The position numbers and the translations under genes are program-made. Of a stretch of DNA of 64,000 nt, positions 14,118 to 25,556 are shown one piece after another; position 1 is the first letter of the stretch; each line of letters begins with the position of its first letter. The stretch lies in the NCBI GenBank assembly GCA_021813325.1, contig JAKALA010000001.1:124001-188000 (forward strand). The letters run 5' to 3'. The notes under the pieces were generated by a model. That model was not told where the DNA came from. It worked only from the letters and a program-made list of their open reading frames with translations, and ran no database searches. The DNA comes from a bacterium. GTDB lineage: Bacteria; Verrucomicrobiota; Verrucomicrobiia; Limisphaerales; UBA11358.

Positions 14118-15062
14118 ATGACTGAGCATACTAACAACGAGGCCGCGCTTGGCTTTTGGCCGGATACGGTGGCTTGTTGGCAGCAACTGCCCAACAAATC
14201 GTTTTTCTTCCCGCTGCTGCTGGCTTGGCTGGCCTTGTTTCAGTTCCTCGGCAATTCCATTTTGGGCTATGTCCACTCTTCCTCCATTTTTGAATGGTTG
14301 AATTACGACTACAGCCTTGTGGGATCGGATGACAGCCACGGTTATCTCATTCCGTTCATTGTGGCCGGTTTGTTTTGGTGGAAACGCAGGGAGCTGTTGG
14401 CACTGCCGATTCGTGTCTGGTGGCCCGGTCTGTTGATCACCGGATTCGCCCTGTTGATGCATATTACCGGTTTTGTGACGCAACAACCCCGCATTTCTCT
14501 GGTGGCGATGTTTCTGGGGATTTATGGGCTGATGGGGCTGGCATGGGGTTGGGCTTGGTTAAAATCGAGCATTTTTCCATTTTGGCTGTTTTTGTTTTGT
14601 GTGCCGGTGGCTTCCCTGGCCACCGCGCTCACTTTTCCCTTGCGCCTTTTTGTCACCTGGCTGGTGGCGGGCGCGGCCCATCTGCTGGCCATCGATGTGA
14701 CCCGTGTGGGCACGCAGTTAATTTCACCCGGCGGCGGATTTCAATATGACGTGGCGGCCGCGTGCAGCGGCATGCATAGTTTGATCGCGGTGTTTCTTTT
14801 GGCGACGGTTTATGGATTTGTGATGTTTCGTTCGCCGGGCCGCCGCCTGCTGTTTATGGTGATGGCGTTGCCGCTGGCCGTGGTCGGGAATTTTATCCGT
14901 CTGCTGCTGATCATATTGGCCGCGGAATTCTTCGGAAAACCGGCTGGCGACTACGTTCATGAAAACGGTTTTTTAAGCATGATTCCATACATCCCGGCCA
15001 TTGTTGGACTGCTGTTGATGGGGCGCTGGCTGGAAAAGAAAGCGGAGGAACCGGCTGAATGA
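14118..15062 (+). CDS. Exosortase (transmembrane cysteine transpeptidase)
   Basis: A 314-residue integral membrane protein with about eight hydrophobic segments. The exosortase/archaeosortase catalytic triad is visible: C216 in AAACSGMHSL, R261 in VGNFIRLLLI and H281 in YVHENGFLS. Exosortases cut C-terminal PEP-CTERM-like sorting tails and attach the protein to the cell envelope, and they almost always accompany exopolysaccharide genes, as here. The stop overlaps the start of the EpsI-type gene by four bases (ATGA). No protein with an evident PEP-CTERM tail was found in the window, so its substrates must lie elsewhere. The Xrt subfamily was not assigned. Confidence 0.9.
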   Translation: MTEHTNNEAALGFWPDTVACWQQLPNKSFFFPLLLAWLALFQFLGNSILGYVHSSSIFEWLNYDYSLVGSDDSHGYLIPFIVAGLFWWKRRELLALPIRVWWPGLLITGFALLMHITGFVTQQPRISLVAMFLGIYGLMGLAWGWAWLKSSIFPFWLFLFCVPVASLATALTFPLRLFVTWLVAGAAHLLAIDVTRVGTQLISPGGGFQYDVAAACSGMHSLIAVFLLATVYGFVMFRSPGRRLLFMVMALPLAVVGNFIRLLLIILAAEFFGKPAGDYVHENGFLSMIPYIPAIVGLLLMGRWLEKKAEEPAE

Positions 15063-15781
15063 AAGTTTCCACCCAGAAAGGGTTTTTGTTCATAGTCACA
15101 CTGGTGTTAATTGCGGGCACGGCCGGGGCGTTGTCATGGCTGAAGTCCAATCAACGCTTGGGACCGCCCGGCCTGATTGCCACGGCCATTCCTGGAAGCG
15201 TCCCCATGCGCATCGAACTGCCGGCGCGCGTGCTGGATTTCACCTCGACCAACGTGCCGACCTCAGACGTGGTTCTGGGCTATCTGCCCAAAGACACGAG
15301 TTACGCCCAACGCCACTACCAAGCGCCGGATGGAGCCTGGGCACTGGCCAATTTGATTCTCATGGGCGCGGATCGCACCAGCATTCATCGGCCGGATTAC
15401 TGTTTGCCGGGGCAGGGTTGGCAGATTCAGAAAAAGACGGAAGTCAAACTGCCCATCGGCGGAGCGCATCCGTATGTGTTGCCAGTAATGAAATGGACCG
15501 TCGGCAGAACGGCAACCACGCCCGAAGGCGGACGGCAGGAGTTGAAAGGCATCTATGTGTTTTGGTTTGTGACTGACCATCAAACCACCGACAACTTTCC
15601 CGGCATGCTTAAATCGATTTTTATCAATCTGGTCCGTCATGGCGTCATGCAGCGCTGGGCCTACGTTTCCTATTTTTCCGTCTGCCTGCCGGGGCAGGAA
15701 GAGGCCATGTTCGCGCGGATGCAACAGTTGATTGTCCATTCCGTGCCGGCATTCCAGTTGCCGCCGGCGTCCGCCAAATGA
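15059..15781 (+). CDS. EpsI-type exosortase-associated protein
   Basis: A 240-residue protein with one N-terminal membrane anchor (residues 8-30) and an extracytoplasmic EpsI domain (DUF3485 family). Family landmarks are DVVLGYLPKDTSYAQRHYQ, MGADRTSIHRPDYCLPGQGWQI with a conserved Cys, and FWFVTDHQTT. EpsI domains are often fused to, or placed directly after, exosortases; here the gene is separate but overlaps by four bases, so translation should be coupled. The biochemical role of EpsI is not established. Confidence 0.85.
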   Translation: MKVSTQKGFLFIVTLVLIAGTAGALSWLKSNQRLGPPGLIATAIPGSVPMRIELPARVLDFTSTNVPTSDVVLGYLPKDTSYAQRHYQAPDGAWALANLILMGADRTSIHRPDYCLPGQGWQIQKKTEVKLPIGGAHPYVLPVMKWTVGRTATTPEGGRQELKGIYVFWFVTDHQTTDNFPGMLKSIFINLVRHGVMQRWAYVSYFSVCLPGQEEAMFARMQQLIVHSVPAFQLPPASAK

Positions 15782-15832
15782 ATTGAATTGTCCGGCTGTC
15801 CCGTTAACATGTTGCCGCCTTAGACCTTTTTC

Positions 15833-17681
<1,849 letters not shown>

Positions 17682-21729: not shown

Positions 21730-22563
21730 TCAGGCTCGCGGATTTCCCGAGTTTGTTTTGGCTCCCATTTCCCCGCCTAAAACCCATAGACCGATGGCTG
21801 CCAGCAGCGATAAATTGGGAAACAACATGGGCGCAAATATCGGGGCGCCGTGAACAATCCGTTCAAACAGGCTGCCACCTTCGGCGATCCAGTCCGCCCG
21901 CAGATGAAGCGCAAATCCCGCCACCCCGACGAGCACCTGAATCCCCAGCATCAGCGCGCATAACAGGAGATAACCAAGCCCGACACGCCACACCAATGGC
22001 ACGGTGAGAAAGCCAACGGCTAACGCGCTGGCAATGACGGGAATCCATTCCACCTGGCGGAAAAACCCATTTTGAGCGTGGTCGGTGAGGCTGAAGATGA
22101 AATTTCCGGCGAAACCGCCCAAGGCGAGGAAAATCACCCACTCCGCCCATGCGCGTGTGTTGGCTGCGACGGTGCGATTTAATATCAGCAGCAGGCCGAT
22201 GCCGGTGTAGGCCAGCGGCGCGGCAAAGGGCGCGGTATAGACAAGGCTGGCCAGCGTCCATTGTTGAAAAAACTGGCTCTTCAAATGTAGCACCAAACCC
22301 ACCACGCCGATGATTACGGAGATCCATCCGGTGGCCTGGCCAAGCAGGTTCCAAAGAAGCATCCGGCCATTGGCCAACGCCCGGATGGCGCCCAGCAACA
22401 TCGCCGGCGCGGCCAGCGAAAAAATCAGCGGCACCCACTCGGCTTGCGCTTGGAAATGGTTTGTGCTGTGCGCCAGAAAGATGTCCGGCGCCAGGCCGCC
22501 GAGGTTGAACAGGACGAACAGTTCCACCCAGCTGCGTGGTTCGCGCAACCATTTATTTGCCAT
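21730..22563 (-). CDS. Integral membrane protein with two internal repeats, partner of the octaheme cytochrome
   Basis: A 277-residue polytopic protein of about eight helices, family not recognised. The two halves repeat: DIFLAHSTNHFQAQAEWVPLI (residues 27-47) matches NFIFSLTDHAQNGFFRQVEWIPVI, and VGLVLHLKSQFF with LVYTAPFAAPL matches VAGFALHLRADWI with IVHGAPIFAPM. Paired histidines recur in both halves, which could ligate haem or bind quinone. The start codon overlaps the end of the octaheme cytochrome gene by 11 bases, so the two are translationally coupled. I infer a membrane anchor or quinone-linked electron-transfer subunit; this is not established. Confidence 0.65.
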   Translation of the reverse strand: MANKWLREPRSWVELFVLFNLGGLAPDIFLAHSTNHFQAQAEWVPLIFSLAAPAMLLGAIRALANGRMLLWNLLGQATGWISVIIGVVGLVLHLKSQFFQQWTLASLVYTAPFAAPLAYTGIGLLLILNRTVAANTRAWAEWVIFLALGGFAGNFIFSLTDHAQNGFFRQVEWIPVIASALAVGFLTVPLVWRVGLGYLLLCALMLGIQVLVGVAGFALHLRADWIAEGGSLFERIVHGAPIFAPMLFPNLSLLAAIGLWVLGGEMGAKTNSGNPRA

Positions 22564-23785
22564 TTTCTTTTTGGAGTTGGGCGGCCTCTTCCTTCAACTC
22601 AACGGTGTTTTTCAGGATGGGGTAGTTGCCGTGCCATTGCACATAGTCGGCCCCGCCCATGAAGGCGGCATGTTTGGCGGTGCGCCCGTAATAATGCCAG
22701 AGGTCGAAATAGGTGAACTGGATTTTCTGGCTGAAGGCATTGGTGGAAATCAGGCCCTCGGCGGCCAGCGAATCCATGATGGCCTTGGCGGCGAGCACTT
22801 TCCGGTTGGTCGCGTCCACGACGGCCGCGCCCTCCTGGTAAACGCGATCCACCAACGGCGGCGTGTGGCATTGCAGACAGATGGTTTTCATTTTCGCCTC
22901 GGCGCGCTCCGCATTGGGGCGCCGCGTGGTGACTTCCGCAAAAAGATTATACGAGAGGCGTTCGGAGGGATCATGCGTCACGCCGGCGCCATTGATGCCG
23001 CTCATGTGGCAGGTGGCGCAGGTTGGCACAAACATGTCTTGGGTGGTCAGACTGTTCGGCGGCGCCTTGAGGTTCATTTGATCTTTTTGCGCGGCGAACA
23101 TGATGCCATGCCTGGATTCCGTGTAGATTTCCATCTGGGAATGGTCCGGGCCAAGGTGGCATTGGCCGCAAGTGCTGGGCAGACGCGCCAGTTCCACCGA
23201 AGTGGTGTGGCGCGCATGGCAATAAGTGCAATTGCCGATGGAGCCGTCGGCATTCGGCCGGCCGATGGCGTGGCAGGTGGTGCAGCCGCTGGTGGTGGCC
23301 GCCGCGCCTTCCCGTTTGGTCAGCGGATGGGCCGTCCGTTTCATGGAGCCGGGATGGAGTTTTTCCATTTCCTCAATCATGCCCGGGGCAAAGGCCTGGT
23401 TGCCCGCCACCGCCACCCAGGCCGGCGCCGCATGCCGGCTGCGGGCGAACTGGTCGTATTCGCGCTCGTGGCAGATCTTGCAGTTCGCCGGCGTGACGTC
23501 CGTGTTTATGACGAATCCGTTGTGATTGGTGCCGGTCTGGCCCTGGGCCACCTGATGGCAATCCAGACACGTCACGCCTTTGGCCGCGTGTTTGCTCATT
23601 TCATACTCATGAACGATGGAATACTGATTGTTCCGGTGGCACTCCGCGCATTTCCCGCTGGCTTTCACAAAATCCGCATTGGGCTGGCGGACTTCTATCG
23701 CTGGCCGTTTGGAATTTATGACATAAGCCGAAACGATCAGCGCAGTGCCGATCACGAGGGCGATGAAAACAGCGCGGAAGTTCAT
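22553..23785 (-). CDS. Octaheme cytochrome c, hydroxylamine oxidoreductase-like
   Basis: A 410-residue exported cytochrome. The N-terminus (residues 3-22) is a single hydrophobic signal/anchor. Eight CxxCH sites are present in order: CAECH, CLDCH, CKICH, CTTCH, CTYCH, CGQCH, CATCH and CLQCH. Spacing and the C-terminal WHYYGRTAKHAAFMGG-DYVQWHGNY region resemble the HAO/multihaem family, which act on hydroxylamine or reduce nitrite and related nitrogen oxides. Whether the cross-linking Tyr that separates oxidases from reductases is present needs an alignment. It lies 23 bases after the hybrid cluster protein gene and overlaps the membrane protein gene. Confidence 0.85.
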   Translation of the reverse strand: MNFRAVFIALVIGTALIVSAYVINSKRPAIEVRQPNADFVKASGKCAECHRNNQYSIVHEYEMSKHAAKGVTCLDCHQVAQGQTGTNHNGFVINTDVTPANCKICHEREYDQFARSRHAAPAWVAVAGNQAFAPGMIEEMEKLHPGSMKRTAHPLTKREGAAATTSGCTTCHAIGRPNADGSIGNCTYCHARHTTSVELARLPSTCGQCHLGPDHSQMEIYTESRHGIMFAAQKDQMNLKAPPNSLTTQDMFVPTCATCHMSGINGAGVTHDPSERLSYNLFAEVTTRRPNAERAEAKMKTICLQCHTPPLVDRVYQEGAAVVDATNRKVLAAKAIMDSLAAEGLISTNAFSQKIQFTYFDLWHYYGRTAKHAAFMGGADYVQWHGNYPILKNTVELKEEAAQLQKENGK

Positions 23786-23808: not shown

Positions 23809-25461
23809 TCAGGCTGTCAACTGTAGAATTGAATTTAAATCCTGCGCCGCCGTTTTGATGGGCATGAGATTGAATTTTTCATTTAACACCTTCAGCACAT
23901 TCGGCGTGACAAAGGCCGGCAGCGTCGGTCCGAGGCGGATGTTGCGGATGCCCAGATGCAGGAGCGTCAGCAGGATCGCCACCGCCTTCTGTTCATACCA
24001 GGAGAGCACGAGCGAGAGCGGCAGGTCGTTGACGCCGCAGTTGAACGCCTTCGAAAGCGCCACCGCGATCTGGATGGCGGAATACGCATCGTTGCACTGG
24101 CCGATGTCCAGCAAACGCGGAATGCCGCCGATCGTCCCGAAATCGAGCTTGTTGAAACGATATTTCCCACAGGCCAACGTGAGAATGACACAGTCTTTCG
24201 GCACACTCTCGGTAAACTCGGTGTAATAATCGCGCCCCGTGCGCGCGCCGTCGCAACCGCCGACCAGGAAGAAATGCTTGATCGCGCCGGTCTTCACGGC
24301 CTCCACGACTTTGTCCGCGACATTGAGCACCGCGTTGTGACCAAAGCCGACCAGAATGGTTTTATCCGGGCCGTCTTCGGCAAATCCCGGCGCGGCCAGG
24401 GCCGCTTCAATGACCGGCGTGAAATCGCCATTGGCAATGTGCGTGACGCCCGGCCAACCGACGAGTCCGCTGGTAAAGATGCGGGCTTGATAATTTGCCT
24501 GCGGCTCTTGAATGCAATTCGTGGTCATCAGGATCGCGCCCGGAAACTTGGCGAACTCATCCTTTTGATCCTGCCACGCACCGCCGTAATTGCCGGCAAG
24601 GTGCTTGAATTTCTTCAGCTCAGGATAACCGTGGGCCGGCAGCATTTCGCCGTGGGTGTAAATGTTGATGCCCTTGCCTTCGGTTTGGCGGAGAAGTTTT
24701 TCCAGATCCTTCAGATCATGGCCGGAGACGAGAATGGCCTGGCCTTTCAAAGGCTCCACGCGCACGGGTGTGGGGACCGGATGGCCATAAGCACCCGTGT
24801 TGGCGGCATCCAGCAGTTCCATGACCAGAAGGTTGACTTCGCCGCATTTCAAATTCAGGGCAAAGAGTTTTTCCACGGATGGAATTTCTTCGGCGAGATA
24901 CCAAAGGGCTTCGGTAATGAAGGCATAGGCTTGATCGTTTTCGTGGCCCAGCACGAGCGCGTGATCCGCATACGCGGCCATGCCTTTCAGTCCGTAAAGC
25001 AGCAATTCCTGCAGTCCGGCGATGTCGGCGCCGAACCGGTCCCGGCGGGTGAGGCTGGAAACCGCTTCGCCTTGCGCCACCAACCCCTCGCTGGTGGCGG
25101 CCGGCATCCAGGTCGCGGGTCCGCGAACTTCCTGCGCGGATTGGCCGGCCGTGCGCGCCGTGTTTTCATAAAGCGCTTTGGCTTTCTCCCGCTGGACGAT
25201 GGCGTAGCGGATCATCTTTTCAATGGCCGCATCGTCAAAATTGACGTTGGTGACCGTGGCGAACAGCGCTTCCAACAGGAAACGATCCAGACCGGCATCG
25301 CGCGCGCCCAGCAAATTGGCGCGGTAATTAAACTGGGCAATGCCCTTGGCGGCGTGGACGAGCAAGTCCTGCAAGATGGCGGTCGATTCGGTTTTGCCGC
25401 ACACGGCAAAGTCGGTGCAACCGGTTCCTTTGGAGGTTTGTTCACATTGAAAACAAAACAT
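23809..25461 (-). CDS. hcp: Hybrid cluster protein (hydroxylamine/NO reductase), class I
   Basis: A 550-residue cytosolic Fe-S enzyme. The N-terminal cluster motif is C3-x2-C6-x8-C15-x5-C21, the spacing of class I proteins (4Fe-4S, anaerobe type) rather than the wider E. coli spacing. The hybrid-cluster ligand regions are visible: GHDLKDLEKLL, NCIQEPQANY, GGCDGA, LACGKYRFN and IGQCNDAYSAIQIAV. Hcp reduces hydroxylamine and NO and is used against nitrosative stress. ATG at 25461 is chosen because it begins the conserved MFCFQCEQT; a longer frame adds 18 unconserved residues. No Hcr reductase gene is adjacent. It opens the operon with the octaheme cytochrome. Confidence 0.95.
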   Translation of the reverse strand: MFCFQCEQTSKGTGCTDFAVCGKTESTAILQDLLVHAAKGIAQFNYRANLLGARDAGLDRFLLEALFATVTNVNFDDAAIEKMIRYAIVQREKAKALYENTARTAGQSAQEVRGPATWMPAATSEGLVAQGEAVSSLTRRDRFGADIAGLQELLLYGLKGMAAYADHALVLGHENDQAYAFITEALWYLAEEIPSVEKLFALNLKCGEVNLLVMELLDAANTGAYGHPVPTPVRVEPLKGQAILVSGHDLKDLEKLLRQTEGKGINIYTHGEMLPAHGYPELKKFKHLAGNYGGAWQDQKDEFAKFPGAILMTTNCIQEPQANYQARIFTSGLVGWPGVTHIANGDFTPVIEAALAAPGFAEDGPDKTILVGFGHNAVLNVADKVVEAVKTGAIKHFFLVGGCDGARTGRDYYTEFTESVPKDCVILTLACGKYRFNKLDFGTIGGIPRLLDIGQCNDAYSAIQIAVALSKAFNCGVNDLPLSLVLSWYEQKAVAILLTLLHLGIRNIRLGPTLPAFVTPNVLKVLNEKFNLMPIKTAAQDLNSILQLTA

Positions 25462-25483: not shown

Positions 25484-25556
25484 CCGGCGACGCGCCGGCG
25501 CGTTTGATGGGCCAAGGATGCTCAAAGTCAGGGAAACCGGCTTTGATTTAAGTCAA
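25484..25556 (-). promoter_or_regulatory. FNR/DNR-like box and leader hairpin upstream of hcp
   Basis: TTGATTTAAGTCAA at 25543-25556 matches the CRP/FNR-superfamily half-sites TTGAT-N4-GTCAA used by FNR, ANR and DNR/NnrR regulators of anaerobic and nitrogen-oxide genes. Its centre is about 88 bases upstream of the hcp start. A class II arrangement would put transcription near 25508. The leader also has a perfect hairpin, CCGGCG with loop ACG and CGCCGG, at 25484-25498. No regulator gene of this family lies in the window. Confidence 0.55.

Follow-up and report, generated by a model that had tools for sequence, protein, structure and literature searches.

What is the membrane protein encoded directly behind an octahaem cytochrome gene in this bacterium, and what could it do for that cytochrome? 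The gene occupies positions 21730..22563 on the minus strand of the window, by which we mean the whole 64-kb stretch of DNA analysed, taken from a draft genome of 123 contigs. The initial annotation read its product as an internal duplication with repeated histidines and proposed a new type of redox anchor for the HAO family.

The octahaem cytochrome gene and its neighbours

On the minus strand, the genes run in the order hcp (23809..25461), octahaem cytochrome c (22553..23785) and membrane protein, the last an open reading frame of 277 amino acids with eight predicted helices. The hcp product, a hybrid cluster protein/hydroxylamine reductase, was identified with NCBIfam (hydroxylamine reductase, 5e-244); we took the Met that opens MFCFQCEQ as its start, whereas the frame at its longest would begin at 25515. 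The membrane gene overlaps the octahaem gene by 11 bases, its ATG preceding that gene's stop codon by 8, and translational coupling of the two is therefore likely. Elsewhere in the window, positions 14118-17236 hold membrane and sugar-transferase-like genes that presumably resemble an exosortase/exopolysaccharide locus.

The cytochrome (410 amino acids, eight CxxCH motifs) belongs to the HAO family (PF13447, E 1.4e-21, over the cut-off), and its hydrophobic N-terminal segment was read as a signal anchor. It also matches the structures 1fgj and 4fas, in alignments that stop near query residue 350; the region of the cross-linking tyrosine of oxidative HAO presumably lies beyond this end. The best PDB match in a profile search was 4qo5 (2.2e-47), listed as 'Hypothetical multiheme protein', which we take to be the octahaem protein of Ignicoccus hospitalis. 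This octahaem cytochrome resembles the one encoded here, but the accessible part of PMC4429474 names no comparable membrane partner for it.

A family profile search of 320 genomes of the order found matches in 10 of them: full-length proteins in eight (nine copies), a C-terminal remnant in G198 and a one-unit protein in G062. All nine intact copies directly follow an octahaem gene and start overlapping its end, by 11 bases in seven copies, by 17 in G086 and by 4 (ATGA) in the distant L015; the coupling to an octahaem cytochrome that the initial annotation had noted in the window is thus kept in every intact copy of the order. Of 245 genomes searched for PF13447 in the order, 34 gave a match, and only three of the 34 (G000, G079 and G086) are among the 10 with the membrane family; in the PF13447 genomes G188 and G203, the membrane partner was not seen beside the octahaem gene. 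Two phylum-sample searches (387 genomes each) yielded no further real member, and a match in G597 was dropped because it sits in an unrelated-looking membrane protein of 497 amino acids. The remnant in the genus mate G198 (L014/L055) has 42 matching residues and is a decayed copy; no octahaem gene was seen in the 8.3 kb of sequence read there, and the genome as a whole lacks a PF13447 match.

The pairs of octahaem and membrane-protein genes lie in an N-oxide neighbourhood. The hcp gene is directly upstream in three of the nine copies (the window, L006 and L008) and was not seen in the sequence upstream of L009, L010, L011 and L053; L007 and L015 lie no more than about 1.4 kb from a contig end. 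A gene for a qNOR-type NO reductase (Pfam) lies downstream in three of the nine (L007, L009 and L011), and YgbA_NO, DGC and CRP-family genes were found near L054/L009. G020 carries two pairs about 38 kb apart on one contig (C113), L009 with its qNOR gene and L010 with the gene for copper nitrite reductase NirK about 4 kb away (TIGR02376, over the cut-off).

A palindrome, TTGAC-N4-RTCAA, stands 95-112 bases before the first gene in seven of nine upstream regions and is absent from those of L053 and L052; in L007, TTGAC-N4-GTCAA also precedes the qNOR gene. A motif scan of the 64-kb window for TTGAY-N4-RTCAA returned one match, the HcpR/FNR-like palindrome upstream of hcp at 25543..25556 (no strand). 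With 0.33 matches expected, and at least one match in 29 of 100 shuffles, a single site of this kind would arise by chance fairly often, so that conservation among relatives is the evidence. Except for one base in the window copy, the motif is the HcpR consensus wyTTGACnnnnGTCAArw, which the accessible part of PMC1274295 places before hcp and frdX in delta-proteobacteria and, in two cyanobacteria, before hcp and norB (TTGACnnnnGTCAA). An NO-responsive, HcpR-like regulator may control the gene set.

Internal duplication and invariant histidines

The membrane protein is built of two related halves, as was first suspected from the letters alone. A Smith-Waterman comparison of residues 1-135 with residues 136-277 scored 138, against 35 ± 6 for 2000 shuffles (z 16, with none of the 2000 reaching the observed score); shuffling the hydrophobic residues apart from the others still gave z 14, again with 0 of 2000. 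Profiles built from 10 N-terminal and 10 C-terminal halves, a comparison proposed in the initial annotation, were aligned by hhalign with a probability of 99.5% (E 1.8e-22). The three matched segments described there also recur in our alignment, pairing H32 with H162, H93 with H220, and YTAPFAAPL with HGAPIFAPM. From the half, unit and hhalign alignments, we delimited an N-terminal unit of residues 1-134 (22162..22563, minus strand; helices 1-4) and a C-terminal unit of residues 135-277 (21733..22161, minus strand; helices 5-8). Helices were predicted, at low confidence, at residues 11-34, 40-64, 68-99, 110-131, 136-164, 174-193, 196-226 and 244-271.

Homologues of one unit also exist, in Frondihabitans (156 amino acids), on two Deinococcus plasmids (157 and 154 amino acids) and in the Verrucomicrobiota genome G062, where the sequence is partly readable. 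Both Deinococcus proteins align with the window halves at z 8 to 10, a score reached by none of 500 shuffles. The Frondihabitans unit aligns weakly with the window halves (z 4.5 and 3.1, reached by 1 and 4 of 500 shuffles) and at z about 50 with both halves of a Granulicella plasmid homologue described below. A unit tree, in which the branches are very long, placed the units of the octahaem branch in a weak group (83/52) and the Granulicella N-terminal half with the single units (91/83). The latter grouping hints that fusion may have occurred more than once.

Two histidines in each unit, on helices 1 and 3, are invariant. The initial annotation had staked its proposal on conservation of the repeated histidines, and in an alignment of 17 homologues from Verrucomicrobiota, Acidobacteriota, Pseudomonadota and Deinococcota exactly the four repeated ones are invariant, while the other two in the window protein, H36 and H238, vary. 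Their codons lie on the minus strand at 22468..22470 (H32, end of helix 1), 22285..22287 (H93, end of helix 3), 22078..22080 (H162, end of helix 5, the counterpart of H32) and 21904..21906 (H220, end of helix 7, the counterpart of H93). The single unit of Frondihabitans, an Actinomycetota member, has the same two histidines. The signature of a unit can be written H … GxxGxxxH … PxxAP, with H93 and H220 closing the GxxGxxxH element. The G, G, H, P, A and P of the latter two elements are present in all 38 units compared (34 halves and 4 single units, from five phyla); the helix-1 histidine is aligned in 37 of the 38, the exception being G062, where it is one column off. Counts of K and R in the loops, with helix ends set by hand, place the histidine ends outside in 15 of the 17 proteins and give the opposite result for Granulicella (13 against 12) and Croceicoccus (7 against 6).

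The protein is new to curated families: searches with it and with four of its relatives gave no Pfam or NCBIfam match above the cut-off. Comparison with NrfD, which the initial annotation had suggested, did not bear out a kinship; PF03916 (NrfD) gave no Pfam match up to E 10, and hhalign against seven NrfD-family proteins of related genomes returned probabilities of 0.9% and 2.5%. An identity as NapC/NrfH is excluded by the absence of CxxCH from the 277 residues and of a PF03264 match, and Pfam likewise detected no match of the membrane protein to cytochrome b. The family profile had no credible match in the PDB (best E 1.4). In searches of the open-licence literature through the names of its partners, we did not find the membrane family described.

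AlphaFold models placed the helices where expected, with packing that is not trustworthy, both from a 7-row alignment (pLDDT 52) and from a 14-row unit alignment of both halves of seven proteins (pLDDT 60); Foldseek with these poor models gave best E values of 0.30 and 0.82. Their quality is too low to show either the pseudo-symmetry named in the initial annotation or the geometry of a haem site. The VIA lists were not used. Generic helical bundles stood at their top, including a designed haem bundle (8d9p, Z 12.3, rmsd 2.4, 134 aligned), with scores in a range that may mean a common arrangement only. Neither Complex I subunits (5xtc_i, Z 6.7, rmsd 6.8, 195 aligned) nor a VKOR-like protein (6wv8, Z 7.2, rmsd 4.0, 116 aligned) ranked above unrelated rows.

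Plasmid homologues beside GMC dehydrogenase genes

The Granulicella plasmid homologue came to light in a tblastn search for relatives of P0005, a distant member (29.7% identity, 4e-5). With the Granulicella protein as the query, 27 plasmid records (itself included) were found at E values up to 1 in four other phyla: Pseudomonadota, Acidobacteriota, Deinococcota and Actinomycetota. With the G062 unit, tblastn returned no plasmid record, and viral contigs scanned once with the protein from Nitrobacter yielded no relatives. We examined 19 of the 27 regions, 18 of them annotated and one without annotation in the stretch; the membrane genes are mostly annotated as 'hypothetical protein'. Immediately downstream in 16 of the 18 annotated regions is a gene for gluconate 2-dehydrogenase subunit 3, followed by or fused to a GMC oxidoreductase gene, assignments that Pfam supports. 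In Komagataeibacter xylinus, the genes are unnamed but equal those of subunit 3 and GMC in size; in Deinococcus AJ005 the GMC gene is present, the small subunit is not annotated and its frame is interrupted. The redox anchor proposed in the initial annotation therefore keeps its link to the octahaem cytochrome, but its restriction to the HAO family is too narrow.

According to the accessible part of PMC6719666, the known FAD glucose dehydrogenase complex combines a GMC subunit and a small subunit that serves as twin-arginine 'hitchhiker' with a trihaem c subunit in the membrane, through which electrons are transferred. The homologues of our family likewise adjoin subunit-3 and GMC genes, but CxxCH is absent from the membrane protein, the small subunit and the GMC protein in all 17 GMC loci compared (the latter two being one protein in the D7000 locus). 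The duplicated membrane protein occupies the place in which one would expect the trihaem subunit. A c-type cytochrome gene lies about 1.9 kb upstream of the GMC operon in Methylocystis (L062); in Nitrobacter (L061), a gene of the cytochrome c3 family is found on the opposite strand at a distance of about 3.7 kb.

The small subunit of the known complex has a twin-arginine signal (PMC6719666, accessible part), whereas inspection by eye of 17 plasmid small subunits and 18 GMC N termini revealed no export signal; an RR pattern in five small subunits is internal and not in a signal. The GMC partners thus look cytosolic, as opposed to the periplasmic octahaem cytochrome, and one model with periplasmic histidine ends does not fit both: if both branches have those ends in the periplasm, then in the GMC branch either the topology must be inverted or there must be some way through the membrane.

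Several further features of these loci were observed. Subunit 3 and GMC are fused into one protein of 865 amino acids in Deinococcus D7000 (L056, 4934-7531), and in each of the two Deinococcus operons the one-unit protein comes after a small protein (L056, 4089-4487; L066, 2595-2984). The two small proteins are similar, and the one in AJ005 (L066) has a VKOR (PF07884) match just under the cut-off. Many GMC operons (plasmid loci L049-L073) share genes for a TPP enzyme, an enolase-superfamily enzyme and often SDR and GH15 proteins, which look like a sugar-oxidation pathway. In G062, the partly readable one-unit member (L091) adjoins a PQQ-type beta-propeller protein (PF13360), possibly a third kind of partner.

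A candidate quinone-linked anchor

Taken as a whole, the explanation that we prefer, to which we would give an even chance, is that the membrane protein is a di-haem b, quinol-linked anchor of an octahaem cytochrome complex. The subunit would be in complex with the periplasmic octahaem cytochrome, and, with the two units fused, helices 1, 3, 5 and 7 would each carry one of the four invariant histidines at the periplasmic end. That it is a physical partner of the cytochrome is very probable, and electron transfer to or from quinone is a reading that we favor with some confidence. Haem or quinone binding is suggested by the four invariant histidines on alternating helices, together with the partners; for haem b on these histidines, we regard the case as evenly balanced. 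On this reading, each unit would most likely hold one haem b between its helix-1 and helix-3 histidines, which would make the fused protein a di-haem b anchor. In cytochrome b, a di-haem four-helix bundle, haem is held between helices B and D by histidine pairs on parallel helices two apart in sequence, as helices 1 and 3 are here. Each four-helix unit of the family studied here, however, has a single histidine pair, and all of these histidines are predicted to lie on the same side of the membrane. The direction of electron flow is likely to be reductive: from quinol, electrons would travel over two haems b (or a different cofactor bound by the histidines), enter the octahaem cytochrome and end on nitrite, NO or hydroxylamine, while Hcp and, in relatives, qNOR would handle NO or hydroxylamine. 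A role as a redox anchor is strengthened by the relatives that accompany GMC/gluconate dehydrogenase enzymes, whose known complexes have a membrane cytochrome subunit, and by the invariance of the four histidines and of the GxxG and PxxAP residues in 17 proteins of four phyla that have two unrelated enzyme partners.

One known system close to the present locus is the reverse hydroxylamine:ubiquinone redox module of Nautilia profundicola. There, an HAO that lacks the critical tyrosine has been proposed to act with NapC-type cM552 as a quinol-driven nitrite reductase, followed by Hcp, and electrons of quinol are proposed to reach reductive HAO-type cytochromes via NapC-type cytochromes (PMC3701875, accessible part). 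The HAO-family octahaem cytochrome and Hcp are shared with our locus, but the operon has no NapC-type tetrahaem quinol dehydrogenase and contains instead an unrelated duplicated protein without haem c motifs, which would stand in place of cM552. The window genome encodes elsewhere a 495-aa frame with a partial match to the NapC-type family PF03264 (positions 6-99 of 174, over the cut-off) and also an NrfD-family protein, either of which could be the quinol donor of the cytochrome.

The histidines might instead bind quinone directly and relay protons, with no cofactor in the membrane protein, so that quinol would reduce a cytochrome haem at the periplasmic face as in an NrfD/PsrC-like anchor. 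NrfD/PsrC membrane subunits have eight helices in two four-helix bundles, a layout that the eight helices in two four-helix sets, predicted here at low confidence, bring to mind; a quinone role is assumed for both, histidines near the membrane surface could bind quinone, and the octahaem partner already supplies haems. However, the absence of detectable sequence kinship with NrfD reported above speaks against this account, NrfD is not known to have the repeated invariant histidine signature, and two invariant histidines per unit with the GxxGxxxH spacing would better suit haem. We therefore consider a cofactor-free quinone anchor unlikely, if still worth weighing.

Two further accounts dispense with electron transfer through the protein. 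It could be a structural anchor or an assembly or maturation factor, an idea that gains from the hydrophobic N-terminal segment of the cytochrome itself, which leaves an extra membrane protein free to serve assembly, and from partners that are otherwise unrelated enzymes; yet absolute conservation of four histidines at repeated positions would be unusual for a mere scaffold, and c-type haem and FAD enzymes would have no common maturation step needing such a protein, which makes this account rather improbable. A channel or transporter for a metal or small molecule (nitrite or hydroxylamine, for example), co-transcribed with the cytochrome gene by chance, seems very improbable. Many helices and invariant histidines would suit it, and hydroxylamine must cross the membrane to reach Hcp, an idea found in the accessible part of PMC3701875; against it, GMC/sugar operons of other phyla keep the same residues, although the regions examined show no annotated N-oxide gene next to them.

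Linking a periplasmic cytochrome to quinone is a known job; within the open-licence literature searched through the partners, what appears to be new is the protein family itself, with its duplicated design of four histidines and with octahaem N-oxide enzymes and GMC dehydrogenases alike as partners. It is conceivable, at somewhat less than even confidence, that these proteins are unnamed, widespread membrane haem modules, in which the unit works as a homodimer or a fused duplicate, and that they serve as an interchangeable quinone adapter of which one branch replaces NapC/NrfH for HAO-type octahaem N-oxide reductases and another the trihaem subunit of GMC sugar dehydrogenases. For some Verrucomicrobia, this would mean that a different protein does a NapC-type job within a nitrite- and NO-handling gene set. 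If a cofactor were shown, many operons would gain a missing electron-transfer subunit, and the origin of a membrane redox fold by duplication of a unit would become testable, since single and fused forms both survive.
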